DNA of 64,000 nt from Methanococcoides methylutens MM1 (GTDB lineage Archaea; Halobacteriota; Methanosarcinia; Methanosarcinales; Methanosarcinaceae), in contig NZ_CP009518.1 of assembly GCF_000970325.1 (NCBI RefSeq), positions 682,001 to 746,000 on the forward strand, written 5' to 3'. Positions 27,098 through 40,091 of this stretch are shown here, one piece after another. The notes under the pieces are model-generated. The model was given only the letters and a program-made list of their open reading frames with translations. It was not told the DNA's origin and ran no database searches. How positions within the stretch are numbered: position 1 is the stretch's first letter; the number at the start of each line of letters is the position of its first letter. Both the position numbers and the translations under genes were made by a program.

Positions 27098-27331
27098 ATG
27101 ACTGAAGAACCAATAGAATTAGATCTCAGGGGGGAGATTTGTCCCTTTACTTTTGTGAAAACGAAATTACAGTTAGAAGAGCTGGAAAGCGGCGATAACC
27201 TCACTGTTATCTTTGATTATCCTCCTGCAGTGTCGAATGTTCCTAAAAGTGTGAAGAATGAAGGCCATACCATTCTTGGTATTGATAAGGAAGAAAATAA
27301 TATCTGGAAAGTGCATATCAAAAAAGCCTGA
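27098..27331 (+). CDS. TusA/SirA-like sulfur-relay protein
   Basis: 77 residues, the size and fold of TusA. The motif LDLRGEICPFTFVKTKLQLEEL keeps the active-site cysteine, but the usual CPxP is CPFT, so it is a divergent member. TusA proteins carry a persulfide to downstream acceptors. It stands at the edge of the sulfur locus with ribosome-binding site GGTGG. Confidence 0.85.
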   Translation: MTEEPIELDLRGEICPFTFVKTKLQLEELESGDNLTVIFDYPPAVSNVPKSVKNEGHTILGIDKEENNIWKVHIKKA

Positions 27332-27490: not shown

Positions 27491-28498
27491 TTAACGTATC
27501 GTCTTGCGCTTAAATTTACCCACGTGGTCCAGTATTACTTCTATTCCGTTGTTGATAAGCGCATTGAACTTCTCAGGTTTCATAGCTGAACGCCTGATGG
27601 GTTCGTGCAGATCGATCAGTAGTATCGCATCGACCCAGTTATCCCTGAGGCGATAGTTCATCGGTTCCTCGAACAGGGCGGTTGCAACTTCCTCCGAAGC
27701 TTTTGCTGCCTCCGCATCTTTGAATTTGACAGGCACATGCAAGGTTACTGATGAGCTCTTTCCACTTTCATCCTTTGGAATGTACAACCTTACGATCTCA
27801 TCACCGAAACGTCCGATGAAATGGTCCGTACCTTTCGTGAAACCAAGTGCTAGGATCGCATCCACCAGACGTGCCGGCAGGTCGTCCATAAGACAGCCAC
27901 AAAGTGCTTTTGTGATGCTTTCTTCCTTCAGTGACTCGGTGAGCTCAACAAAGGCTTCCATGGGAAATCCGAAAACGATCTCATCGTTCCTGTAATCGCT
28001 GAACATACGCGCTCCGGAACACAGGAGTGAGAGGTTCACCTTGTTCTCCATTACCGGGATGGTGGTACATTCTCCACAGACTGCGAATTCTCCCTTGAAC
28101 TTTGCATTTACCATGTCACCTTTCACTTTGGATAGGGTTGCAGCCACACGCATCAGCTTGCTGGCGGTTCCTACTACCACTACCACATCGGGTTCGAATT
28201 CACATTTGTCAAGAGGCGTGACGGTCATAGTTCTTGTATCAGCAGGCTTCATCCTTGGATATACATCTCCATAAGCAGGCTCGGTGAATCCCAGTGCAAG
28301 TTCTGCGCTTGCACAGGACATATCATCAGCCGAACAGGTATAGGATGTACCAAAGGCAGCAGCTTTTCTCACAATCTCACAGTATCGCATGGGTTGCGGA
28401 ATATCTGGCTCCTTTTCGCTGTTGAACTTGACAGCGACCGGTGTAAGGGGCAGCTCAAAGAACTGCCTGAACTGCTTTGTTAGTTCCGTATATTTCAT
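27491..28498 (-). CDS. DUF169 family protein
   Basis: 335 residues, soluble. The DUF169 pattern is seen in FELPLTPVAVKFNSEKEPD near the start, MRYCEIVRKAAAFGTSYTCSADDMSC, and GCLMDDLPARLVD, with many cysteines (near residues 40, 55, 60, 139, 142 and 201) that could bind metal or a cluster. The C-terminal 100 residues are less typical. It overlaps the SepCysS gene by four bases (ATGA), so the two are translated together. The family has no established function; context suggests sulfur or tRNA-cysteine metabolism. Confidence 0.8.
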   Translation of the reverse strand: MKYTELTKQFRQFFELPLTPVAVKFNSEKEPDIPQPMRYCEIVRKAAAFGTSYTCSADDMSCASAELALGFTEPAYGDVYPRMKPADTRTMTVTPLDKCEFEPDVVVVVGTASKLMRVAATLSKVKGDMVNAKFKGEFAVCGECTTIPVMENKVNLSLLCSGARMFSDYRNDEIVFGFPMEAFVELTESLKEESITKALCGCLMDDLPARLVDAILALGFTKGTDHFIGRFGDEIVRLYIPKDESGKSSSVTLHVPVKFKDAEAAKASEEVATALFEEPMNYRLRDNWVDAILLIDLHEPIRRSAMKPEKFNALINNGIEVILDHVGKFKRKTIR

Positions 28499-29664
28499 GC
28501 TTCATCCTCCACCGGTATGTCATACTTCCTTGCGATTTCAAGGAAAGCGTTGGCAACGTATTCTATCTGCTTTCTGCTGAGTCCGAACGTATTCAATTTG
28601 AAACTCTTGCTCATGCCCGGTTGTATTCCCATTATCTTTCGTTTCTTCAGTTCATGGTACAGGAAATAACCACGTTTCTTTGATTTGGAAGCAGCTTCGA
28701 AGAACGGGAGGGATTCGAAAGCCACGAGTGTGTGTTCTGTAGGCTTTACACCCATCTGGTGTAATCCTTCGATACGTTCGATCTGTGATGCAAGGTATCT
28801 CGCATTCTCTACTTCTTCGTCCCAGTGCTTCACACGTTCCACAACAGTAGGGAACGATGCCATTAGTGACATCACCGGAGCTCCGAAGACAGGGGAACAG
28901 CCGAACAGGGCTACTTCCTTCTTGGTGAAGCCGCGTCCGCTCCAGTCACCTCTGATTGTAGACTTGTCGAATACCTGCTGGTTCCATTCGAAGGTCGTTG
29001 CAAGTATTCCCATTGGTGCGGATGCTGCCCAGCTTTTGTGCCCGGAAGCACAGAGGAAGTCAACGCCAAGTTTCTTCCCGTCAATTGGCATAACTCCTGA
29101 TGAGTAAGCTGTGTTCAACAGGAACGGTACGCCGTATTCCTTACAGATCTTCCCCACGGATGCGGCATCTGCCACATTGCCATAGCGATAATCAACATGT
29201 GTCAGTAGCGCCAGTGCAGGCAGTGATCCGGTGTTGCGTTCCACTTCCTCGAATTTTTCCGCATATTTCTCCGGATCGATCGTAAATTCCGGGTAGCCGC
29301 TATGAGGTACCTCAACGACATTTAGCTGGTTCGCTTCTGCTGCAAGGTATGATGTATAGTGTGCAAGTGAATCCAGTACAATGGTATCGCCGGGTTCTGT
29401 GACCATGTGCATTGCAGCCCATTTTGCATGTCGGCATCCGGCTGTGAACCTCACATCGTCCATGTTCAGGAATTCTGCTATATCTGCTGTAAGGTTCCTT
29501 ACAGGCGGGTTCTGGACCAGATCGACCCTTGACTCGAAACAGTAGTCACAAACTGAATAACCATCTGCGAATTCAAGTGTTGCTTTTCTGGCTTCAGCGG
29601 TAAGTACTCCTCCTCGCTGGATAGGGTTCAGGTTGATGTATGTGCTTTCAACCCCTCTGCTCAA
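28495..29664 (-). CDS. pscS: O-phosphoseryl-tRNA:Cys-tRNA synthase (SepCysS)
   Basis: PLP enzyme converting Sep-tRNA(Cys) to Cys-tRNA(Cys) in methanogens; its sulfur donor in the cell is not firmly settled. 389 residues: YINLNPIQRGGVLT opening, the conserved pair CDYC near residue 38, FTAGCRHAKW, and the PLP lysine in CASGHKSWAASAPMG near residue 215. A third conserved cysteine lies in FGCSPVFGAP. The start codon is TTG at 29664; no ATG or GTG is available upstream of the conserved opening. Coupled to DUF169. SepRS is not in the window. Confidence 0.95.
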   Translation of the reverse strand: MSRGVESTYINLNPIQRGGVLTAEARKATLEFADGYSVCDYCFESRVDLVQNPPVRNLTADIAEFLNMDDVRFTAGCRHAKWAAMHMVTEPGDTIVLDSLAHYTSYLAAEANQLNVVEVPHSGYPEFTIDPEKYAEKFEEVERNTGSLPALALLTHVDYRYGNVADAASVGKICKEYGVPFLLNTAYSSGVMPIDGKKLGVDFLCASGHKSWAASAPMGILATTFEWNQQVFDKSTIRGDWSGRGFTKKEVALFGCSPVFGAPVMSLMASFPTVVERVKHWDEEVENARYLASQIERIEGLHQMGVKPTEHTLVAFESLPFFEAASKSKKRGYFLYHELKKRKIMGIQPGMSKSFKLNTFGLSRKQIEYVANAFLEIARKYDIPVEDEA

Positions 29665-29735: not shown

Positions 29736-29984
29736 TCAAAGGAACTCTTCAAGTTCCTCTAGTATCTCGTCCTTTTCCACTCGTCCGATCAGCGCGACCT
29801 CTCCATTAATAGCAATAGTAGGTACTTCTTCTATCCCGAGTTGCTTTGCTCTCTCAGCTCCTTCTAAGCCGGTTACGTTTATCTCCTTGAACATAACCCC
29901 TTCAGGAAGAACTTCGATTATCTGGTTCCTGACATAATGGCAGTTCATGCAAATATCGGAATAATATAGTTCTATTAATGTCAT
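29736..29984 (-). CDS. Thioredoxin-like CxxC protein
   Basis: 82 residues from the ATG at 29984: MTLIELYYSDICMNCHYVRNQ with a CMNC redox motif, cis-Pro in EEVPTIAING, then a short helix. It fits the small thioredoxin/glutaredoxin-like group of methanogens. The open frame continues upstream to 30068 and would add a hydrophobic segment (IIVVIPFVIYLTV) as a membrane anchor, so a tethered form is possible. Divergent from the small gene at 30083. Confidence 0.75.
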   Translation of the reverse strand: MTLIELYYSDICMNCHYVRNQIIEVLPEGVMFKEINVTGLEGAERAKQLGIEEVPTIAINGEVALIGRVEKDEILEELEEFL

Positions 29985-30082
29985 CGATGGTCTATTAACT
30001 GTCAGATAAATAACAAATGGTATCACGACAATTATTGCCTCCCCCATTACCTTATTAATATCTTGCATATATAAGGAGTTTC

Positions 30083-30438: not shown

Positions 30439-31398
30439 TCAGGAAACAAGGCTGATGGCAGTATATGCCATCAGACCTGCTACCAGTGGCGATATTACCC
30501 ACATTACCACAATTCGTCTTACCATCCTATTCTTCATCGTAGCCATGCCTTTATTAGCACATCCGATTCCTATAACTGCTGCCGGTACCAGCTGCCCGAG
30601 TGCCACAGGGATACCGTAATGGGATGCAACATGTACGATGATTGCCACGATCACTTCGATGAAGATCGCACGTATGGTACAGATCTCTGCTATATCCGTC
30701 CCGACGGTCTGGAGGACACGACCTCCTATCACTATAGCTCCAATGCCAAGCGTAAGACCTCCGATAACAGCTCCTGTTGTCGCGTCCACAAATCCCGCTC
30801 CTACGAGAGGACCGACAGCATTGGCAGCATTGTTCGCACCTGCCGAATAGGCAACATAACAACCGGTCACCGTCAGGAGCTTTCCGATAGTGCTCCTTAT
30901 CTGTGCTTCCGATTCATGTTCCACAAGCCATACCACCATTCTTGGATGGATGTATTTGCCGGAAAGATAAGCCAGAACGAATGCAAGTATCGGGGTAGCG
31001 ATCCACCATCCTACTATCTCTGAAAGCAGTTGGGTATCGAGTATCCCGTAGAATATTCCTATTCCTACAATAGCACCTACTGCTGACTGGCTTGCTGATA
31101 TCGGGACCTTTAGTATGTTCCCTATGAACAGGCTGATGGCGGCTGCACTTGTTGCAATGATCGCTGCTGTGATGGTAATTGTATTACCTGGAATGATTCC
31201 TTCGCCAAGGGTCCTGATGACCTCTTCACCACTGATCAGGGCACCGAGAAGGGAAAATATTGCTATCAATATCACTGCCTGCTTTTTAGTACGGGCCCTT
31301 GCACCATATGCTGGACCCATGGCAGCAGCTGCATTGTTCCCGCCGATGTTGATCCCCATGAAGATCGCAGATGCAATTGCAGCCAGTGCTATGATCAT
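30439..31398 (-). CDS. PiT-family anion permease, probably sulfate (CysP-like)
   Basis: 319 residues, 9-10 membrane helices, with the duplicated PiT signature: GINIGGNNAAAAMGPAYGAR near the N-terminus and AYSAGANNAANAVGPLVGAG in the second half. PiT members import phosphate or, in the CysP branch, sulfate by cation symport. Sequence alone does not separate the two here. Position, divergent from the sulfite reductase-APS reductase-ATP sulfurylase genes across one promoter region, argues for sulfate or sulfite. Confidence 0.85.
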   Translation of the reverse strand: MIIALAAIASAIFMGINIGGNNAAAAMGPAYGARARTKKQAVILIAIFSLLGALISGEEVIRTLGEGIIPGNTITITAAIIATSAAAISLFIGNILKVPISASQSAVGAIVGIGIFYGILDTQLLSEIVGWWIATPILAFVLAYLSGKYIHPRMVVWLVEHESEAQIRSTIGKLLTVTGCYVAYSAGANNAANAVGPLVGAGFVDATTGAVIGGLTLGIGAIVIGGRVLQTVGTDIAEICTIRAIFIEVIVAIIVHVASHYGIPVALGQLVPAAVIGIGCANKGMATMKNRMVRRIVVMWVISPLVAGLMAYTAISLVS

Positions 31399-31614
31399 TT
31401 AGTAATAACCCCTTTTAATTCCCGTTTATCTTTATATATTCCGCATTACTTAGTCTTGTTTCCACTCATTTTTTGGAGTAAATATATAGCAAATGAAAGG
31501 TAATTTGTTATATATCGATGGGTAATGGGGCTAAAATTACCACTATAATGAGTGCAACTTTTGCCTTTTTATATACCTATATATCTCAATCTGGGGAAGT
31601 TAGGATGATAATAC
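31399..31614. promoter_or_regulatory. Divergent promoter of permease and sulfate-reduction genes
   Basis: For the minus strand AATATATAAAG (31443-31433) is a TATA box about 40 bases before the permease ATG. For the plus strand CTTTTTATATACC near 31566-31578 is followed about 25 bases later by the expected start. Between them, GGTAAT occurs at 31499 and 31521, and an inverted ATTACC at 31536, giving GGTAAT-N9-ATTACC (31521-31541). This is a candidate operator for sulfur control. Confidence 0.5.
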
Positions 31615-32475
31615 ATGGGTAATAAGACTATCAACTATGACAGGCTCAAACAAGGCGGTTTTCTTCGCCAGAGGCAGAAGGAAGACCTTTTCTCAATGCG
31701 ACTTCGTGTCGTTGGGGGTCAGCTGACTGCTGATCAGCTTCGGGCACTTGCAGACGCTTCCGAGAAGTATGGCAGGGGAGAGGTCCACATAACTGCACGG
31801 CAGGGACTTGAGATATCATACGTTCCTCTTGACGATGCAGAGGACCTTCTTGATGAGCTTGAGAAAGGAGATGTTTATCAGGGGACCTGTGGACCCAGGG
31901 TCCGCGGAGTCGTTGCATGTCAGGGAAATCTCATCTGTCCGCGTGGGCTGATCGATGCAGAGGATATTGCAAAGAAGATCGATGAAAAGTACTTTGCCAT
32001 GGAACTTCCTGGCAAGTTCAAATTTGCAGTTACTGGCTGTCCGTCATCATGTATGAAGCCACAGGAAAATGACCTTGGGGTAATGGGGGGACTTGAGCCG
32101 GAATGGGTAAATGATAAATGTACCTATTGTGGTCTCTGTCAAACAGTGTGTCCCGTGGATGCGATAAAGGTCGAGAATGGTGCCCTGGAATTTTACAGGG
32201 ACAAATGTAATCTCTGTGGGCAATGTCTACTGATATGCCCGACAGAAGCATGGGTAAAATCCCGTGAAGGTTACACGGTTTATGTTGGCGGCAAGGTCGG
32301 TAAATATCCAAGGCTTGGTGTCAAACTTACCGAGCTTGTGGATGAAGATACTCTGTTCAGGATAATCGAGAGGTCTGTGGAGTTCTTCAAGATCGAAGCA
32401 ACTTCAGGAGAACGGTTTGGAGATACTATCCAGCGTGTGGGCTTTGAAGAGTTCAAGGCTTTTGTGCTGGAATGA
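31615..32475 (+). CDS. Siroheme Fe-S sulfite reductase (small Dsr-like type)
   Basis: 286 residues. An N-terminal ferredoxin-like half domain (GGFLRQRQKEDLFSMRLRVVGG) is followed by the siroheme/4Fe-4S site: CQGNLIC near residue 103 and CPSSC near 143 (C-x5-C and C-x3-C). A two-cluster ferredoxin insert follows (CTYCGLCQTVCP, CNLCGQCLLICP). This is the compact archaeal sulfite reductase-like architecture. Beside CysH and CysDN its natural job is reducing sulfite to sulfide with reduced ferredoxin. Such proteins can also be nitrite-reducing or uncharacterised, so the role is inferred from context. Confidence 0.85.
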   Translation: MGNKTINYDRLKQGGFLRQRQKEDLFSMRLRVVGGQLTADQLRALADASEKYGRGEVHITARQGLEISYVPLDDAEDLLDELEKGDVYQGTCGPRVRGVVACQGNLICPRGLIDAEDIAKKIDEKYFAMELPGKFKFAVTGCPSSCMKPQENDLGVMGGLEPEWVNDKCTYCGLCQTVCPVDAIKVENGALEFYRDKCNLCGQCLLICPTEAWVKSREGYTVYVGGKVGKYPRLGVKLTELVDEDTLFRIIERSVEFFKIEATSGERFGDTIQRVGFEEFKAFVLE

Positions 32476-32606
32476 ATTGAGATTTCCGGGTAAGCAGCAA
32501 GTGTCTGCTATCCGGATCCCATTTCTTCATATCTCCTCAATGCTGACACTGCTGATATTATATGTCCAGCAGACGACCAGTATGAAAATCATCAGGAAAT
32601 GGAACT

Positions 32607-33350
32607 ATGCCGGAGCCAGATAAGGAATTAACAATAGAAATGGAACAATTGGCTGAAGACTATAAAAGTAGGTCTCCTCAGGAGATTCTTGAGTATGCTC
32701 TGAACAGGTTTGGATCAGATATCGCTATTGCATTCAGCGGTTCAGAGGACGTTGTGCTCATTGATATGGCAACAAAGATCAAGGCAGATGTGAATGTCTT
32801 CTCCATTGACACCGGTCGTCTGCATCCTGAAACCTACAAGTTCTTCGAAGTGGTGCGGGATCATTATAACATTAATCTGGAGATATTCTTTGCGAACAGG
32901 GAAAAGACCGAAGAATTGGTTCACAAGAAGGGTATGTTCTCTTTCTATAAGGACGGGCACAAAGAATGTTGTGCTGCCAGAAAGGTCGATCCACTCAAAC
33001 GTTCCCTTAGCAGGAGGTCTGCATGGATCACCGGCCAGCGCAAGGACCAGAGCCCCAACACACGTGCATATATTCCTGTTGTAGAGGTAGATCCTGTATT
33101 TGGGGACGGCACGCTTGTGAAGTTCAATCCTCTGGCAAACTGGACCTCCGGGCAGGTCTGGAATTACATCAGGGAGAACAATGTTCCCTACAATGAACTC
33201 CATGAAAAGGGGTATGTCAGCATTGGTTGTGAACCATGTACAAGACCTGTTCTGCCGGGGCAGCATGAACGTGAAGGACGCTGGTGGTGGGAAGAAGCAA
33301 CCAAAAAAGAATGTGGACTTCATTCGGGGAACATCAGTTCCCGGGACTGA
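32607..33350 (+). CDS. cysH: Adenylyl-sulfate (APS) reductase, Fe-S type CysH
   Basis: Reduces APS to sulfite and AMP with thiol. 247 residues: PP-loop-like [14 protein letters not shown] near residue 43, and [12 protein letters not shown]. The cysteine pairs [12 protein letters not shown] and GCEPC hold the [4Fe-4S] cluster that marks APS- rather than PAPS-specific enzymes. The catalytic cysteine is in KKECGLH near the C-terminus, so all key residues are present. It is 131 bases after the sulfite reductase and 123 before cysD, on the same strand. Confidence 0.93.
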
Positions 33351-33473
33351 AAATTAAAATTGAGACTTCAGGATCAATTCATAACAATTAGGACTTCAGA
33401 AGAAGAGAAATCAAAGTAAAAATTGAGAACATTGTAGAATATATCTATGACTAAAATTAATGGAGGGTTAAAT

Positions 33474-34382
33474 ATGGCCATTGCGGAAGAATCTTATCGG
33501 CTTTCAAATTTAAAGACGCTTGAAGCCGAAAGCATAGGCATTATCAGAGAGGTCGCTGCAGAATTCGAAAATCCGGTTATGTTGTATTCTGTGGGCAAGG
33601 ACTCGTCAGTGATGGCTCACCTGGCTATCAAGGCCTTTTACCCGAAAAAAGTACCTTTCCCCTTATTGCATATTGATACGGGATACAAGTTTCCTGAGAT
33701 GTATGAATTCAGGGATCAATATACGAAGAAACACGATCTGGACCTGAAGGTTCACAGGAACGAGGACGCTATCAAAAGAGGAATAAATCCCCTTACAGTG
33801 GGGACGGTCAAATGTTGTGCCGAGCTTAAGACGAAAGCTCTCCTTGACGGACTAAAGGAAGGTGGCTATGATGCAGCCTTTGGAGGTGCCAGAAGGGATG
33901 AAGAAAAATCAAGAGCAAAGGAAAGGATCTTTTCCTTCCGTGACAAGCATGGCCAGTGGAATCCGAAGGATCAGAAACCCGAATTATGGAACCTCTTCAA
34001 TTCAAAGATCGACCCCGGAGAATCTATCAGGGTATTTCCACTCTCTAACTGGACAGAGCTTGATATCTGGACATATATCTACCATGAGAATATTGAGATC
34101 GTGCCTCTTTACTTTGCCAAGAAAAGGCCGGTCATCGAGAAGCATGGTCAGCTAATTCCGGTCTATACGGATGAACACGAGGAAGATGTCAAAGAGGTCA
34201 TGTGCCGCTTCAGGACCTTGGGATGCCATTACTGTACAGGTGCGGTAAGGTCAGAGGCAGACACTTTGCCAAAGATCATCGAGGAGATGATGGTTGCCCG
34301 CCATTCCGAGCGTATCACAAGGGTGATCGACCACGACCAGGACAGTTCCATGGAACAAAAGAAGAAGGAGGGATACTTTTGA
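33474..34382 (+). CDS. cysD: Sulfate adenylyltransferase subunit 2
   Basis: Adenylyltransferase subunit of the heterodimeric ATP sulfurylase; forms APS from ATP and sulfate with CysN. 302 residues: PP-loop [13 protein letters not shown] near residue 40, [31 protein letters not shown], and [15 protein letters not shown]. The start is ATG 33474, seven bases after GGAGGG; the earlier ATG 33447 adds nine residues without a ribosome-binding site. Its stop overlaps the cysN start. Confidence 0.96.
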
Positions 34383-35926
34383 AGGGATCTGACTCTTTGA
34401 TCGAACAAAGCCAGAATATTGATCTGCTGCGTTTTGCCACTGCAGGAAGTGTGGACGATGGTAAATCAACCCTCATCGGGAGATTACTATACGATTCAAA
34501 ATCAATATTCGAGGACCAGTTGCATTTAATAAAGACATTCTCGAAGGCCCACAGGAATCAGGAGATCGATTATTCCCTTGTAACCGATGGTCTGAAATCA
34601 GAAAGAGAGCAGGGGATCACAATTGATGTCGCCTACAGGTTCTATTCGACCCCGAAAAGGCGCTTCATTATTGCAGATACCCCCGGGCATGAGCAATACA
34701 CGAGGAACATGGCCACAGGTGCATCTAATGCATCCCTTGCCCTGATCCTCATTGACGCCAGGAACGGAGTTGTAACACAGACAAAAAGGCATTCGTTCAT
34801 CTCGTCCCTTCTTGGGATCCGGAACTTTGTGGTAGCTGTCAATAAGATGGATCTTGTAGACTACTCAGAGGAAGTGTTCGAGAACATTGTGAGCGAGTTC
34901 AATGCTTTTGCTGACAAGTTATCGGATGAATCAATATACTTCATACCCATAAGTGCTCTCAAAGGTGACAATGTCATCGAACGAAGCGAGAACATGCCCT
35001 GGTATAAGGGTTCTACATTGCTCGATTACCTTGAGAACGTAAATGTGACTGGTGGTCGCAACCTTACTGATTTCAGGTTCCCTGTGCAGTATGTAAACTG
35101 GGGAGGTGGCGATGATTTCAGGGGTTATTGTGGAACAATAGCTTCAGGCATTATACACAAAGGTGATGAGGTCAGAGTTCTTCCTTCAGGAAAAACAAGC
35201 AGGATCTCAAGGATCGTCACGTATGATGGCGATCTCGATCATGCCTTTGCTCCCATGGCAGTGACCCTTTGCCTTGAGGATGACATTGACATCAGTCGAG
35301 GGGACATGATCGCGAAGGTTGATGATCTTCCTGTAATTGCCGGAAGTCTGGAGGCAAACATCGTATGGATGGATAGTGAGCCCATGCAGATGGGGAAGGA
35401 TTATGTTATCAAGCATACTACCAGCACTGTCAAAGGAAGTTTCTCTGAAGTGCTTCATGAGTTCGATCCGGAGGATATCAGCATGAGGTCTTCGGAGTTC
35501 CTGAGCTTGAATGAGATCGGAAAGGTCAAGGTCGAGTTAAAGGCTCCGATATTTGCTGATATCTATTCGGAGAATCGGATATCAGGTTCTTTCATTGTGA
35601 TCGATCCTCACACCAACCAGACAGCTGCTGCCGGTATGATCACTAAATACAAACAGGTATCTCCTGACAAAGCCTGCAAAGCTGTCAAGCCCAGGGTTAT
35701 CAGGTATCCGGGAGACAAAAAAGAAGAGGCACAGGCGAATTATGATCGCCTTTCCATGCAGGGTACGCATTGTATCTATGTGGATGATGAGCTGCTACAG
35801 GAAAACGTCTGCAAGGGAATCCCGGTCGATAGTGCGCAATATTCCGACACTATTGAGGGTCTGTGTGAGATCGTTACAAGATCAGGTGTTTCTGTGGTCT
35901 TGTGTTCTGATCATGTGAACAGTTGA
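34379..35926 (+). CDS. cysN: Sulfate adenylyltransferase subunit 1 (GTPase) with degenerate APS-kinase tail
   Basis: Elongation-factor-like GTPase that drives CysD. 515 residues from a TTG at 34379, which overlaps the cysD stop (TTGA) and lies six bases after GGAGGG; no ATG fits. G1 is [13 protein letters not shown]3 [18 protein letters not shown]4 NKMD, followed by two beta-barrel domains to about residue 430. The last 85 residues ([15 protein letters not shown] to the end) align in layout with the APS-kinase domain of CysNC fusions ([19 protein letters not shown] against the LLDGD strand), but the P-loop is gone (PGDKKEEAQ). It therefore appears to be a dead CysC. Confidence 0.94.
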
Positions 35927-36076: not shown

Positions 36077-36985
36077 TTAAAGTTCCAGCTCTTCAACAAA
36101 ATGAAGGTCAAAGATATCTTTCTGCTCGAGCTTCTTTGAGATATATCCGAGTTCGTTCAACACATCTACGAATCTCATAGTGGAACCAATGTAATCTTCT
36201 GATATGCCTGCTGAGTATTTTGGTGATACTTCATACATCTCTTTCACAAAGTCGGCATCTATTATTTCAATGGTATCGGAAACGAGTTTTGATGCCTCTT
36301 CTGTATTTTCACGAATGAATTCACAGGCATTTTCATGCAATTTAATGAACTTCAAAAGAGTATCAGGTGAGTTCTCGATCATGTCACAGGTTGCAACTAT
36401 CCCGTAACTTGGGTTATCAGGCCACAGCTTTTCAGGCGGTATCACCATTTTTGCATCACAGTACCTTTTTGCCACAACAGCAAGTGATGGTGTCCCAACT
36501 GCAACTTTGATCTCCCCGTCTGCTATTGCTTCGGGGATCATGTCAGCCCACTCGTAATTCAGGACATCGATGTCATTCTCAAACCCTGCTTCCTTATTAT
36601 AGTTCCTGATGATCACATCATGAATGGAACCGGAAGGTGGACAGGCTATTAAATGCCCTTTAAATTGTTCCAAAAAAAGTATCCGATCACTTCTACATTC
36701 TTCGAGGGTCCGGAATTCAGGAGTGGTTATCATCACAGTTCCTTCAACATGACCGCCTGCAATACACTTGACCTCTAATCCGCGATCGATCCCTATCATT
36801 GTGGGGGGCAGGCCGATATATCCGATGTCCAGCTCGTTATTCTCGAGTGCATGGACGATCGCAGGTCCTCCTCCAAAAAGTTTCCACTCTGGTTCAATTC
36901 CTGCTTTTTCAAGCCAGTCTGTCCCCATCAGTATGAATGAGGTATGGTACATGGTAGAAAGGTGTCCGATTCTCAATTTCATCAT
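36077..36985 (-). CDS. NMT1/SsuA-like substrate-binding protein without signal peptide
   Basis: 302 residues of the periplasmic-binding type II fold used for sulfonates, nitrate, pyrimidines and aliphatic amines: LRIGHLSTMYHTSFILMGTDWLEK, NNELDIGYIGLPPTMIGIDRGLEVK, ACPPSGSIHDVIIRNY, AVGTPSLAVVAKRYCDA. The mature fold begins at residue 3; there is no signal peptide or lipobox and no permease or ATPase gene nearby. It could be a cytosolic sensor or enzyme-like derivative. Given the setting, a sulfur compound is a plausible ligand. Convergent with cysN. Confidence 0.75.
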   Translation of the reverse strand: MMKLRIGHLSTMYHTSFILMGTDWLEKAGIEPEWKLFGGGPAIVHALENNELDIGYIGLPPTMIGIDRGLEVKCIAGGHVEGTVMITTPEFRTLEECRSDRILFLEQFKGHLIACPPSGSIHDVIIRNYNKEAGFENDIDVLNYEWADMIPEAIADGEIKVAVGTPSLAVVAKRYCDAKMVIPPEKLWPDNPSYGIVATCDMIENSPDTLLKFIKLHENACEFIRENTEEASKLVSDTIEIIDADFVKEMYEVSPKYSAGISEDYIGSTMRFVDVLNELGYISKKLEQKDIFDLHFVEELEL

Positions 36986-37073: not shown

Positions 37074-37349
37074 TCAGCCACCGCTTACTGCTGGCAAAAT
37101 TGATATTTCGTCAGAATCGGTTATTTTGGTGTCAAGTCCTGAAAGGTGCCTTATATCTTCTCCATTGACATAGACATTTACGAACCTTCGTACTTCACCA
37201 TCCTGAAGCAGACGTCTTTCAAAATCCTCCCCATACTCGCTCGTAAGTCTATCAAAAAGGGCCTTTATTGTAACAGTACCCAGATCGATATTTGTTGATC
37301 TTGTTTTTGTTATGTTGTTCAGTGCTGATGAAAATCTTATAGATACCAT
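37074..37349 (-). CDS. ThiS/MoaD-like sulfur-carrier protein
   Basis: 91 residues of beta-grasp type ending in the Gly-Gly tail (ILPAVSGG) needed for E1 adenylation and thiocarboxylate formation. YVNGEDIRHLSGLDTKITDSDEISIL is the usual MoaD/SAMP core. It lies 21 bases downstream of threonine synthase on the same strand, so they are co-transcribed. The E1 partner is probably the protein at 38936. Alternative roles are molybdopterin synthesis or protein conjugation. Confidence 0.88.
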   Translation of the reverse strand: MVSIRFSSALNNITKTRSTNIDLGTVTIKALFDRLTSEYGEDFERRLLQDGEVRRFVNVYVNGEDIRHLSGLDTKITDSDEISILPAVSGG

Positions 37350-37370
37350 TTTATTTCACCTCTTGATGTA

Positions 37371-38618
37371 TTAATTGTTGGTTTTTGTGATATTGTTGAG
37401 CTTCTTTGTGAATTCGGAATATGATGACTTTATGGACTCCGGTCTCTCAACTGCCCCCGCAATAGTATCCTGTGCTTTCAGACCATTACCTGTTACATAT
37501 ACAACTGTTCTTTCATCGGGGTCAATATGGCCGCTTTCCACAAGCTTCTTAAGACCAGCAACTGTTGTTCCGCCGGCAGGTTCTGTGAAAATTCCTTCAG
37601 TACTTGCAAGCAGGCGTATAGCCTCAAGTATCTCCTCGTTCGTTACGGATGCAGCATAACCTCCTGAAGTCTGGATCGCCTGCTTTGCATAGTATCCGTC
37701 AGCAGGATTTCCGATAGCCAGGCTGTGGGCAATTGTGTCAAGTTCCCTTATCGGGATGACTTCTGTATCGTTCTGAACAGCGGTCGATATTGGGGAACAT
37801 CCGCTTGGCTGTGAACCGGATATCCTGATGTTACTGCCTCCATCGATGAAACCTATCTTTTCAAGTTCCCTGTAACCTCTGGTCAATGCACACAATAGTG
37901 CTCCGCTTCCAAGCGGTGCAACGATGTGATCAGGAGCCCTCCATCCGAGCTGCTCGGCAGTTTCAAATGCGAGTGTTCTGGAACCTTCCGTGTAGTATGG
38001 CCTGACATTTATGTTTACAAATGCCCAGTCGGGATTTTGGTCTGCGACCTCACTTGCAAGACGATTTGCATCATCATAGGTCCCGTCAACAGCTATAACG
38101 TTTGGATCGTATGTGAGCATCTGTGTTATCTTACCAGTCTCAATGGAGGAAGGTATGAAGACGTATGCCGGAATTCCAGCTTTTGCAGCATGTGCTCCTA
38201 CTGCGGATGCGAGGTTTCCTGTGGATGCACAGCCAATTGCAGTGGCACCGAGTTCCAGAGCCTTGCTTACTGCAACTGACGTGACCCTGTCCTTGAATGA
38301 ATTCGTGGGATTCACTGAATCGTCAAGAATGTATAATTCTTTAAGTCCCAGTTCTTTACCAAGGTTCTTTGCGTGATGCAATTTATTGTAACCTGCACCA
38401 AGGTCAACATAATTAGTTCCGTCTATCGGAAGAAGGTCTGCATATCTCCAGATGGATGGTGGTCCTCTAGCTATCTTTTCCTTGCTTGCTGTGTCCTGTA
38501 CTTCATCCCAGTCGTAGTGCACTTCAAGCGGTCCGAAGCATTCGTAGCAGGTATTCTGGATACCAGCTTCATATTCAGCACCACATTCTCTGCATTTTAA
38601 ACCAATTACTTTACTCAT
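37371..38618 (-). CDS. thrC: Threonine synthase (or threonine-synthase-derived PLP enzyme)
   Basis: 415 residues. An N-terminal zinc ribbon (CRECG, CYECFG) is followed by the fold II PLP domain, with the lysine in NPTNSFKDRVTSVAVS near residue 115 and phosphate loop CASTGNLASAVGAHAAKAG. Standard activity: O-phosphohomoserine to threonine. The operon with a ThiS/MoaD carrier and the divergent E1 recall thiocarboxylate-dependent synthesis of cysteine (CysO-CysM) or homocysteine (HcyS systems). An alternative sulfhydrylase role on phosphohomoserine is therefore worth considering. It does not look like cysteate synthase at its N-terminus. Confidence 0.88.
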   Translation of the reverse strand: MSKVIGLKCRECGAEYEAGIQNTCYECFGPLEVHYDWDEVQDTASKEKIARGPPSIWRYADLLPIDGTNYVDLGAGYNKLHHAKNLGKELGLKELYILDDSVNPTNSFKDRVTSVAVSKALELGATAIGCASTGNLASAVGAHAAKAGIPAYVFIPSSIETGKITQMLTYDPNVIAVDGTYDDANRLASEVADQNPDWAFVNINVRPYYTEGSRTLAFETAEQLGWRAPDHIVAPLGSGALLCALTRGYRELEKIGFIDGGSNIRISGSQPSGCSPISTAVQNDTEVIPIRELDTIAHSLAIGNPADGYYAKQAIQTSGGYAASVTNEEILEAIRLLASTEGIFTEPAGGTTVAGLKKLVESGHIDPDERTVVYVTGNGLKAQDTIAGAVERPESIKSSYSEFTKKLNNITKTNN

Positions 38619-38935
38619 TTTGTATCTCTCCTGATATTCGGATTATTAATTATCCGTAATAAAATTAGTATATATTATTACCATTGGTTATTAGGCAATA
38701 ATTACCTTTATCTGATAATGATGTCAATTGGTTCTGTTTTTGAGACTCTTGGAGTAAAAGTAAACAAAAATGAGCAAATTTGCCGCTTTCTATATCTATT
38801 TATCAGGAAATTACAGTTTTTTGAAAATGCTGACACGAATTGAACTTGCAACTTGCAATATAGCATTTCAATGGCAATCTGGTCGGCTACGATCGATGCA
38901 ATTCAGCATGATCTATGATTTTTAGGGAGGCAAAA
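38619..38935. promoter_or_regulatory. Divergent promoter region, thrC / E1-like gene
   Basis: 317 bp without a gene. TTAGTATATATTATTACC near 38665-38682 offers a TATA element. ATTACC occurs at 38677 and 38701, and with GGTTATT (38686-38692) forms an imperfect inverted repeat GGTTATT-N8-AATTACC. The same GGTAAT/ATTACC words occur in the permease-sulfite reductase promoter. Confidence 0.4.
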
Positions 38936-39754
38936 ATGCTAGGTGAATTTACTGAAGAACAGATCAGGCGGTATTCAAGACACATAATACTGCAGGAAGT
39001 TGGTGGTAAGGGACAACAGAAGTTATTGTCTTCCAGAGTGCTCTGTATAGGTGCAGGAGGTCTTGGTTCTCCTATCATACAGTATCTGGCAGCCGCCGGA
39101 GTTGGGACCATCGGTATCGTTGATGACGACGTTGTGGACCTTAGCAATCTTCAAAGGCAGGTCATACATGGAGGTAATGTAGATGTTCCAAAGGTCGAAT
39201 CTGCAAAACAGTATGTTGAGAACCTGAACCCTGATGTGAAAGTTATAACTTATCAGGAACGGATCAGTCCTGACAATATCCTGGATATAATAAACGACTA
39301 CGACATCGTAGTGGATGGTTCTGATAATTTTGCCACCCGCTACCTGGTCAACGATGCCTGTGTGCTTGCAAAAAAACCTCTTTCTCACGGTAGCATCTTT
39401 CGTTTCGAAGGTCAGGTTACGACAATACTTCCTGATGAAGGTCCATGTTACAGGTGTCTTTTTGAGCATGCTCCGCCTGCCGGGATGGTTCCAAGCTGTC
39501 AGGAGGCCGGAGTCATCGGAGTACTTCCTGGTATAATTGGTGTCATCCAGGCAACTGAGGTCATCAAATACCTTTTGGGATTCGGGGATCTGCTGAAAGG
39601 TCGCCTTATATTCTATGATGCCTTTGGCATGTCTTTCGATGAGATCAAGGTACGTAAGAACCCTTCATGTCCGGTATGTGGGACAGAGCCTTCTATAATT
39701 TCAATTGAGGATGAGAATTATCAGCAAGGAGGCGGGGTCTGTAGTATTGGATGA
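38936..39754 (+). CDS. E1-like ThiF/MoeB adenylyltransferase
   Basis: 272 residues from ATG 38936 (MLGEFTEEQ), which follows GGGAGG by seven bases; an earlier in-frame start adds seven residues. GAGGLGSPIIQYLAAAG nucleotide site, VDDDVVDLSNLQRQ, FGMSFDEIKV, and zinc cysteines CYRC and CPVC. It presumably activates the ThiS/MoaD protein encoded at 37074. The C-terminus ends QQGGGVCSIG, a glycine-rich tail with an extra cysteine absent from the paralogue at 18761. Confidence 0.92.
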   Translation: MLGEFTEEQIRRYSRHIILQEVGGKGQQKLLSSRVLCIGAGGLGSPIIQYLAAAGVGTIGIVDDDVVDLSNLQRQVIHGGNVDVPKVESAKQYVENLNPDVKVITYQERISPDNILDIINDYDIVVDGSDNFATRYLVNDACVLAKKPLSHGSIFRFEGQVTTILPDEGPCYRCLFEHAPPAGMVPSCQEAGVIGVLPGIIGVIQATEVIKYLLGFGDLLKGRLIFYDAFGMSFDEIKVRKNPSCPVCGTEPSIISIEDENYQQGGGVCSIG

Positions 39755-39845: not shown

Positions 39846-40091
39846 TCAGGCCTTGCGGACGTATATGCTGAAGACGCCTCCCTTTTCTTCAACCGCGAGC
39901 AGTACATTCCCTGTCTTTTTTGTCCATGTGGCGATGTTCTGTGGGGTCATGGCTTCATTTGCTATGACTAACAGAATCTCGCCTGTTTCCAGCTCATCCA
40001 TTAGTTCCTTTGTTCTGATAAGTGGGTATGGGCAGCACTGTCCCCTCACATCAAGCTCAAAGTCTGCTATCATTTTATCCATTTGAATCAA
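39846..40091 (-). CDS. TusA-like sulfurtransferase
   Basis: 81 residues with the full TusA signature DVRGQCCPYPLIRTKELMDEL (CPxP intact, preceded by an extra cysteine). Transfers persulfide sulfur. ATG 40091 or the internal ATGs at 40082 and 40073 may be the start. Convergent with the E1 gene and fits as the sulfur delivery partner of the carrier system. The spacer before it carries short AAAGTATCA repeats. Confidence 0.9.
   Translation of the reverse strand: MIQMDKMIADFELDVRGQCCPYPLIRTKELMDELETGEILLVIANEAMTPQNIATWTKKTGNVLLAVEEKGGVFSIYVRKA

Follow-up and report, generated by a model that had tools for sequence, protein, structure and literature searches.

We analysed 64,000 nucleotides of the Methanococcoides methylutens MM1 genome (the window), in which a small siroheme protein, a Group III Dsr-LP, probably serves as sulfite reductase in an archaeal pathway of assimilatory sulfate reduction of the APS type. 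In the proposed pathway, sulfate would be imported by a CysP-like permease, converted to APS by CysDN and then to sulfite by CysH. The Dsr-LP would reduce sulfite to sulfide, a six-electron step, at its siroheme-[4Fe-4S] centre, with a low-potential ferredoxin as the likely electron source, feeding in via two inserted [4Fe-4S] clusters. Two protomers may contribute to the active sites in the way known from Fsr, and the sulfide produced would pass to SepCysS and to the sulfur carriers encoded alongside. The basis for this pathway is gene order, conservation, catalytic residues and the predicted fold, and from these we infer the activity, the donor, the dimer and the direction of flux. The features of the locus are listed in Table 1.

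Table 1. Features of the sulfur island in the window (positions count from the first nucleotide of the window).
Feature	Position	Strand	Remarks
TusA-like protein	27098..27331	+	77 aa; tblastn 2e-13, reading frame
SepCysS, Sep-tRNA:Cys-tRNA synthase	28495..29664	-	sulfide consumer
Thioredoxin/glutaredoxin-like protein	29736..30068	-	possible cysH donor
CysP-like PiT-family permease	30439..31398	-	divergent from Dsr-LP; in 21/22 fetched A1 loci
Operator-like inverted repeat GGTAAT-N9-ATTACC	31521..31541	.	divergent cysP/Dsr-LP promoter region
TATA-box-like stretch, Dsr-LP promoter	31566..31575	+	read by eye; conserved among relatives
Group III Dsr-LP, proposed assimilatory sulfite reductase	31615..32475	+	286 aa; siroheme-[4Fe-4S] and two [4Fe-4S]
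Codon of Cys92	31888..31890	+	loop cysteine of cysH-linked Dsr-LPs, absent from clade B
Hairpin just past the Dsr-LP stop	32485..32516	+	two compensated pairs, 6 Methanococcoides
cysH, [4Fe-4S] APS-reductase type	32607..33350	+	profile match (TIGR00424/TIGR02055)
cysD, sulfate adenylyltransferase small subunit	33447..34382	+	
cysN, sulfate adenylyltransferase large subunit	34379..35926	+	TTG start overlaps cysD stop
SsuA/NMT1-like binding protein	36077..36985	-	
SAMP1/MoaD/ThiS-like carrier	37074..37349	-	Gly-Gly end
Threonine-synthase-like PLP enzyme (ThrC-like)	37371..38618	-	
Second copy of the operator-like motif	38686..38706	.	upstream of ThrC-like/carrier genes and of E1
E1-like (ThiF/UbaA family) adenylyltransferase	38915..39754	+	
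TusA	39846..40091	-	

The Dsr-LP reading frame fills its interval exactly, from an ATG start to a TGA stop. Pfam places NIR_SIR_ferr at residues 18-84 (2.1e-24) and NIR_SIR at residues 93-284 (4e-32), and two Fer4 motifs (residues ~163-185 and 195-213) lie within the NIR_SIR span. The siroheme-cluster motif (C102-X5-C108...C142-X3-C146) and the eight ferredoxin cysteines (C169/172/175/179 and C198/201/204/208) are invariant in all 105 rows of the clades A1, B and P described below. Reading frame, domains and cysteine motifs confirm the first-pass annotation, which had described a single siroheme half with two ferredoxin clusters in 286 residues. By the definitions in the accessible text of PMC3448663 the sequence is assigned to Group III, subgroup d: it has the siroheme-coupled [4Fe-4S] motif with peripheral and additional [4Fe-4S] clusters, it carries R29, R97, K134 and K136, and it is a single half without Fsr-N. 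Its named close relatives are from Methanococcoides (86-92% identical), and the nearest solved proteins are the Fsr chains 7np8, 9tn7 and 7npa. All NCBIfam matches were below threshold, the best being AsrC (TIGR02912). That identity was rejected, the score being 172.4 bits against a cut-off of 324.1 and the partners asrA and asrB being absent; the neighbours are cysP and cysH. Also rejected were DsrAB (DsrB 100.8 against 341.5 bits, DsrA 79.8 against 392.85 bits) and Fsr, whose fused F420H2-oxidase N-terminal half is absent.

An AlphaFold2 model made with a 40-row alignment (pLDDT 93.3, pTM 0.89) was compared with solved structures using VIA-align, and matched M. jannaschii Fsr over 282 residues with Z 30.9 and an rmsd of 2.1 A; the Z scores were 30.6 for MtFsr (7npa), ~24 for DsrA and ~20 for assimilatory reductases. 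R29, R62, R97, K134 and K136 correspond to Arg355, Arg388, Arg423, Lys460 and Lys462 in the list of MjFsr catalytic residues of PMC10229431, and all five are kept in 54/54 rows of the linked clades. These residues bear on two other readings of the enzyme. A nitrite reductase might be suspected from the Group II Fsr of ANME-2c, which with F420H2 acts on nitrite but not on sulfite (PMC9295563), and from MtFsr, which favours nitrite (PMC10229431). We consider this highly improbable, because Group II Fsr departs from the five catalytic Arg/Lys and has lost two binding arginines, whereas the Dsr-LP keeps all of them, and none of the neighbouring genes inspected was identified as one for nitrate or nitrite. 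It is extremely unlikely that the Dsr-LP works in reverse, oxidising sulfide to sulfite for coenzyme M (CoM) synthesis as has been proposed for Dsr-LP and alSir proteins (PMC3448663, PMC6286981), since Arg62 (MjFsr Arg388) and the CX5CXnCX3C motif, given as assimilatory traits in PMC10229431, are tied there to one-way reduction, and where cysH is present a source of sulfite already exists.

In a 126-row tree, clade A1 has 23 rows, all adjoining cysH, and clade P has 33 rows, from the Methanoperedens-like group f5, 28 of which adjoin cysH. Clade B has 49 rows, and cysH was nearby in none of the 15 loci fetched with wide flanks. The assimilatory role is proposed for the cysH-linked clades (54 rows) and does not extend to the unlinked clade B of Group III Dsr-LPs, which is of similar size (49 rows). 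The best tree groups clade B with A1 rather than with P (92/96; 85/86 in a reduced set), while a topology test did not reject A1 and P as one clade (p-AU 0.336), so that the linkage to cysH may have arisen once or twice. Given this test, the idea that two lineages of Dsr-LP were joined to cysH separately is not upheld.

The placement of the Dsr-LP directly ahead of cysH-cysD-cysN was already noted in the first-pass annotation and holds, all on the same strand, with the refinement of a TTG start for cysN at 34379. The C-terminus of CysN (35680-35926) extends ~80 residues past the part matched by CysN models. Within a sample of 149 genomes of the order, 90 had a Dsr-LP match (1e-60) and 61 a bacterial-type cysH (1e-40), with none in 88. 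When the surroundings of cysH in MM1 and in all 60 other cysH genomes were compared, a Dsr-LP lay directly upstream on the same strand in 51 of the 61, and thus the adjacency is not due to chance. Three of these 51 loci have a TusA gene between Dsr-LP and cysH, overlapping the former by 4 bp. Adjacency is lacking in ten cysH genomes (G014, G065, G069, G076, G078, G085, G093, G094, G117 and G064), but in G064 the Dsr-LP and cysH are at contig ends, and G101 is likewise at a contig end. Linked-clade Dsr-LP and cysH are both present in 53 of the 149 genomes and both absent from 87; eight have cysH only, and the single genome with the Dsr-LP only is 68% complete. Put differently, cysH occurs in 53/54 genomes with the linked-type Dsr-LP versus 8/95 without. 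The genomes are related, and therefore a Fisher p-value overstates their independence and is uninformative in itself. Both states are found inside genera g1 (8 both, 1 neither), g3 (3 both, 4 neither) and g5 (7 both, 5 cysH only, 12 neither), which indicates that the two genes are gained or lost together. In a phylum sample of 391 genomes, 32 of the 33 with a bacterial-type cysH fall in the order.

The ATP sulfurylase behind Dsr-LP-cysH varies, being cysD in 14/22 and Sat in 5/22 fetched A1 loci, and Sat in 17/30 fetched P loci. As the CysDN and Sat families are non-homologous (PMC6286981) and are exchanged by lineage, the Dsr-LP appears as the constant partner of cysH. A canonical two-half reductase of the NirA/SiR family (483 aa) was found at 1e-30 in 2/149 genomes, G076 and G085, and these are the only 2 of 32 Methanoperedens-like (f5) cysH genomes without a linked-clade Dsr-LP; their two-half reductases are 96% identical, so the replacement was probably one event. 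In G056 the linked Dsr-LP is the sole PF01077 protein of the genome. Taken together, linkage, co-occurrence, ATP-sulfurylase exchange and the one replacement give good support to the earlier proposal that sulfite is the natural substrate, and, as expected for an assimilatory enzyme, the gene is linked to those that activate sulfate and reduce APS. Among NCBIfam profiles CysH has its highest score with an APS reductase, and a search of the whole genome found no APS kinase (best 23.6 bits, over a P-loop stretch only), which would fit an APS rather than a PAPS route.

Several observations count against the proposed role. The 2.39-Mb MM1 genome encodes five PF01077 proteins, and the four besides the Dsr-LP, which are a paralogue with 50% identity (413258-414097), a 644-aa protein like Group II Fsr and two small proteins of the alSir type, could do the sulfite step. 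In addition, the linked Dsr-LP is missing from eight cysH genomes; four of these, Methanolobus-like, have retained cysH-cysD-cysN together with a sodium:solute symporter, and their siroheme candidates are only a clade B Dsr-LP and alSir. Among the Fsr proteins of the order, L230 (G014:C1:645500-653500) is of the Group I type and groups with MjFsr (100/99), unlike most of the order; its genome belongs to g4, a genus that also includes a Methanohalobium MAG (L074).

Coenzyme M can be made from sulfite by the cysteate synthase route. CysH could accordingly make sulfite for CoM, with the Dsr-LP only trimming an excess or setting the sulfite pool, and both the need for sulfite in CoM synthesis (PMC3448663, PMC6286981) and the cysH linkage agree with this. 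Such a role is nevertheless quite unlikely, since most relatives must make CoM without a bacterial-type cysH (absent in 88/149) and the island also holds sulfide users, namely SepCysS and sulfur-carrier genes. Another reading is sulfite detoxification: in Methanococcus maripaludis a Group III Dsr-LP confers sulfite resistance, with sulfite as a sulfur source (PMC12138975), and hence the group is not wholly without an assigned function. The Dsr-LP would then clear external or CysH-leaked sulfite and protect methyl-CoM reductase, with assimilation secondary. Detoxification has been proposed for Methanoperedens (PMC12138975, PMC12246660) and for Methanohalophilus (PMC6491703), and Fsr detoxifies sulfite in Methanocaldococcus (PMC10229431). 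Against the assimilatory role itself, Methanococcoides burtonii and ANME were inhibited by sulfite (PMC6286981). Long exposure of Methanoperedens to sulfide raised both sat and the Group III Dsr-LP (PMC12138975); the joint response favours a shared pathway, yet induction when sulfide is plentiful is odd for assimilation. We still regard detoxification as an unlikely main role, because it leaves unexplained why the Dsr-LP tracks cysH and ATP sulfurylase, and because unlinked siroheme proteins (clade B, alSir and Fsr) are widespread.

The most novel feature of the Dsr-LP is an unexplained cysteine, Cys92, in the active-site loop next to the siroheme, five residues before the sulfite-binding R97. 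It is present in 51/51 cysH-linked enzymes versus 0/49 clade B paralogues; by clade, it is found in 23/23 A1 rows and 31/31 linked-clade P rows, and in 0/2 unlinked P paralogues. Together with Arg31, Pro94 and Pro209 it makes up the four positions separating linked rows from clade B. Cys92 is not exclusive to neighbours of cysH, as it occurs in 10/10 rows of P2 and in 3/21 rows from outside the order (G308, G436 and G428), with 0/3 among the AsrC compared. G093 has a linked-clade row with Cys92, yet its cysH is not adjacent, and G452 and G423, outside the order, have an E1 gene nearby yet no Cys92. The P2 proteins are two further Dsr-like clades of Methanoperedens-like f5 (L219, L220, L222-L227, L135 (6985-7962) and L221), which lack the equivalent of Cys108 in the siroheme-cluster motif and keep the loop cysteine and the five catalytic Arg/Lys. 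In one of them, L222, the Dsr-like gene and a TusA gene overlap at the start of the former. The alSir rows L004, L005, L231-L233, L235 and L236 all (7/7) show another loop cysteine of this superfamily, two positions ahead of the Arg equivalent to R97.

The assimilatory NirA of M. tuberculosis (1zj8) has an aligned cysteine, like Cys92 five residues before the matching active-site Arg, though it differs from the Dsr-LP in being a two-half monomer without ferredoxin inserts. NirA is said to have a Cys-Tyr bond, and we take the aligned cysteine to be the one in this bond. A Cys92-Tyr8 bond of the same kind was considered and dropped, because Tyr8 is present in 21/23 A1 rows but P has Val or Ile, and no partner Tyr for Cys92 is conserved across both linked clades A1 and P. 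PDB titles list mutations of M175 in plant nitrite reductase and of N149 in E. coli SiR, and partly from the alignments we presume these residues to lie in the Cys92 loop. The loop is a candidate sequence marker that may help to tell assimilatory Group III Dsr-LPs from others.

The inverted repeat between cysP and the Dsr-LP is the only exact match to GGTAAT-N9-ATTACC in 2.39 Mb. It is found in the same place, with at most one mismatch, in 8/8 Methanococcoides genomes with the locus, MM1 included; G037, G075, G088 and G139 have it with one or two mismatches. The loose palindrome with one mismatch gave 8 sites against 10 in a reversed control and is therefore weak on its own. A combined pattern, allowing one mismatch, gave two sites in 2.39 Mb and none in the control, the pattern having been built from those same sites. 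The 21-bp motif is thus common to two divergent promoter regions of the island (31521-31541 and 38686-38706). In most P loci the Dsr-LP is separated from the next gene by -4 to 23 bp, and in Methanococcoides by 54-135 bp (starts uncurated); co-transcription with cysH is plausible in relatives with short gaps. In MM1 the spacing is 131 bp and contains the conserved hairpin, so a single transcript cannot be assumed. The hairpin has no clear T run, and may be a transcript end or a processing site.

The genes around the locus suggest a wider sulfur island. Counted over 22 fetched A1 loci, the CysP-like permease is present in 21, TusA2 in 20, the SsuA-like protein, MoaD/SAMP and E1 in 16 each and SepCysS in 11. 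The SAMP1/MoaD-like carrier gene lies 21 bp behind that of the threonine-synthase-like enzyme (37074-38618), an arrangement that recalls carrier-dependent insertion of sulfur into amino acids. No JAB protease gene was found in the 64-kb window, the only one over the cut-off in the genome being at 1418598, outside the window. Outside the order, the Cys92-bearing Dsr-LP of G308 stands in the order MetY-E1-JAB-DsrLP-TusA and that of G436 has E1, TusA and SsuA-like neighbours. Perhaps the cysH-linked Dsr-LPs form a sulfite reductase class of their own, with Cys92 either taking part in catalysis or holding the product sulfur and passing it via TusA to E1-activated SAMP/ThiS, and sulfate sulfur would then enter biosynthesis bound rather than as free sulfide. 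The hints are the 4-bp overlap of TusA with the Dsr-LP in three loci, the TusA beside Cys92-bearing Dsr-LPs in G308 and G436, and the motif common to both promoter regions of the island; with these hints, we hold the idea to be conceivable and rather improbable.

If the Dsr-LP is indeed the last step of an assimilatory pathway, part of the methylotrophic Methanosarcinales and most sampled Methanoperedens-like genomes would hold a complete APS-type pathway, one that few methanogens were thought to use, and a small Dsr-LP would complete it. This would change the reading of sulfur supply, of sulfite toxicity and of the 2025 sulfide-stress data on Methanoperedens. Sulfate-dependent growth is proven in a single methanogen, and Methanocaldococcus infernus has the full gene set yet does not use sulfate (PMC10322725), so gene content alone is no predictor of growth.

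Parts of this system have appeared in earlier work. PMC6286981 records CysDN for Methanococcoides methylutens and Methanolobus tindarius, adds that four Methanosarcinales and Methanoperedens have a second APS reductase of bacterial type, and in 2018 called the Group III Dsr-LPs biochemically uncharacterized; the words operon, adjacent and neighbor are absent from its main text. In the literature text consulted, we found no earlier report of Dsr-LP-cysH-Sat/CysDN linkage or of the loop cysteine. The Group IIId Dsr-LPs of PMC3448663 are alike in being freestanding siroheme-[4Fe-4S] proteins with peripheral and additional clusters and four sulfite-binding Arg/Lys, whereas the MM1 enzyme is linked to cysH and ATP sulfurylase and has Cys92, Pro94 and Arg31, residues absent or almost absent from clade B. 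The C-terminal half of Fsr (MjFsr 7np8, MtFsr 7npa) is alike in fold, catalytic residues and cluster motifs, but is without Cys92, and the Dsr-LP is without the F420H2-oxidase half and consequently needs a separate electron donor. AsrC (TIGR02912) has the same domain layout, and the three sequences compared lack Cys92.

The closest parallel in gene arrangement is with the class 4e ThiS/MoaD-E1-JAB-SirA operons, including that of Wolinella, which combine sulfite reductase, APS/PAPS reductase and ATP sulfurylase with E1, a ThiS/MoaD carrier and SirA/TusA in one neighbourhood; Iyer et al. (2006, PMC1779556) predicted that such operons channel sulfur from sulfate onto ThiS/MoaD carriers. The MM1 island differs in being archaeal, in having a ThrC-like enzyme in place of O-acetylhomoserine sulfhydrylase and in having no JAB in the window. 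Its class 4e-like genes share a neighbourhood and are spread over several operons, and the likeness drawn here is one of gene arrangement. For Wolinella, a Sir-HcyS pathway was reportedly described by Krishnamoorthy and Begley in 2011. Since bacterial sulfate-to-ThiS operons have been known since 2006 and sulfite resistance by a Group III protein is known in Methanococcus, the MM1 system is not a new kind; its arrangement is an archaeal variant.
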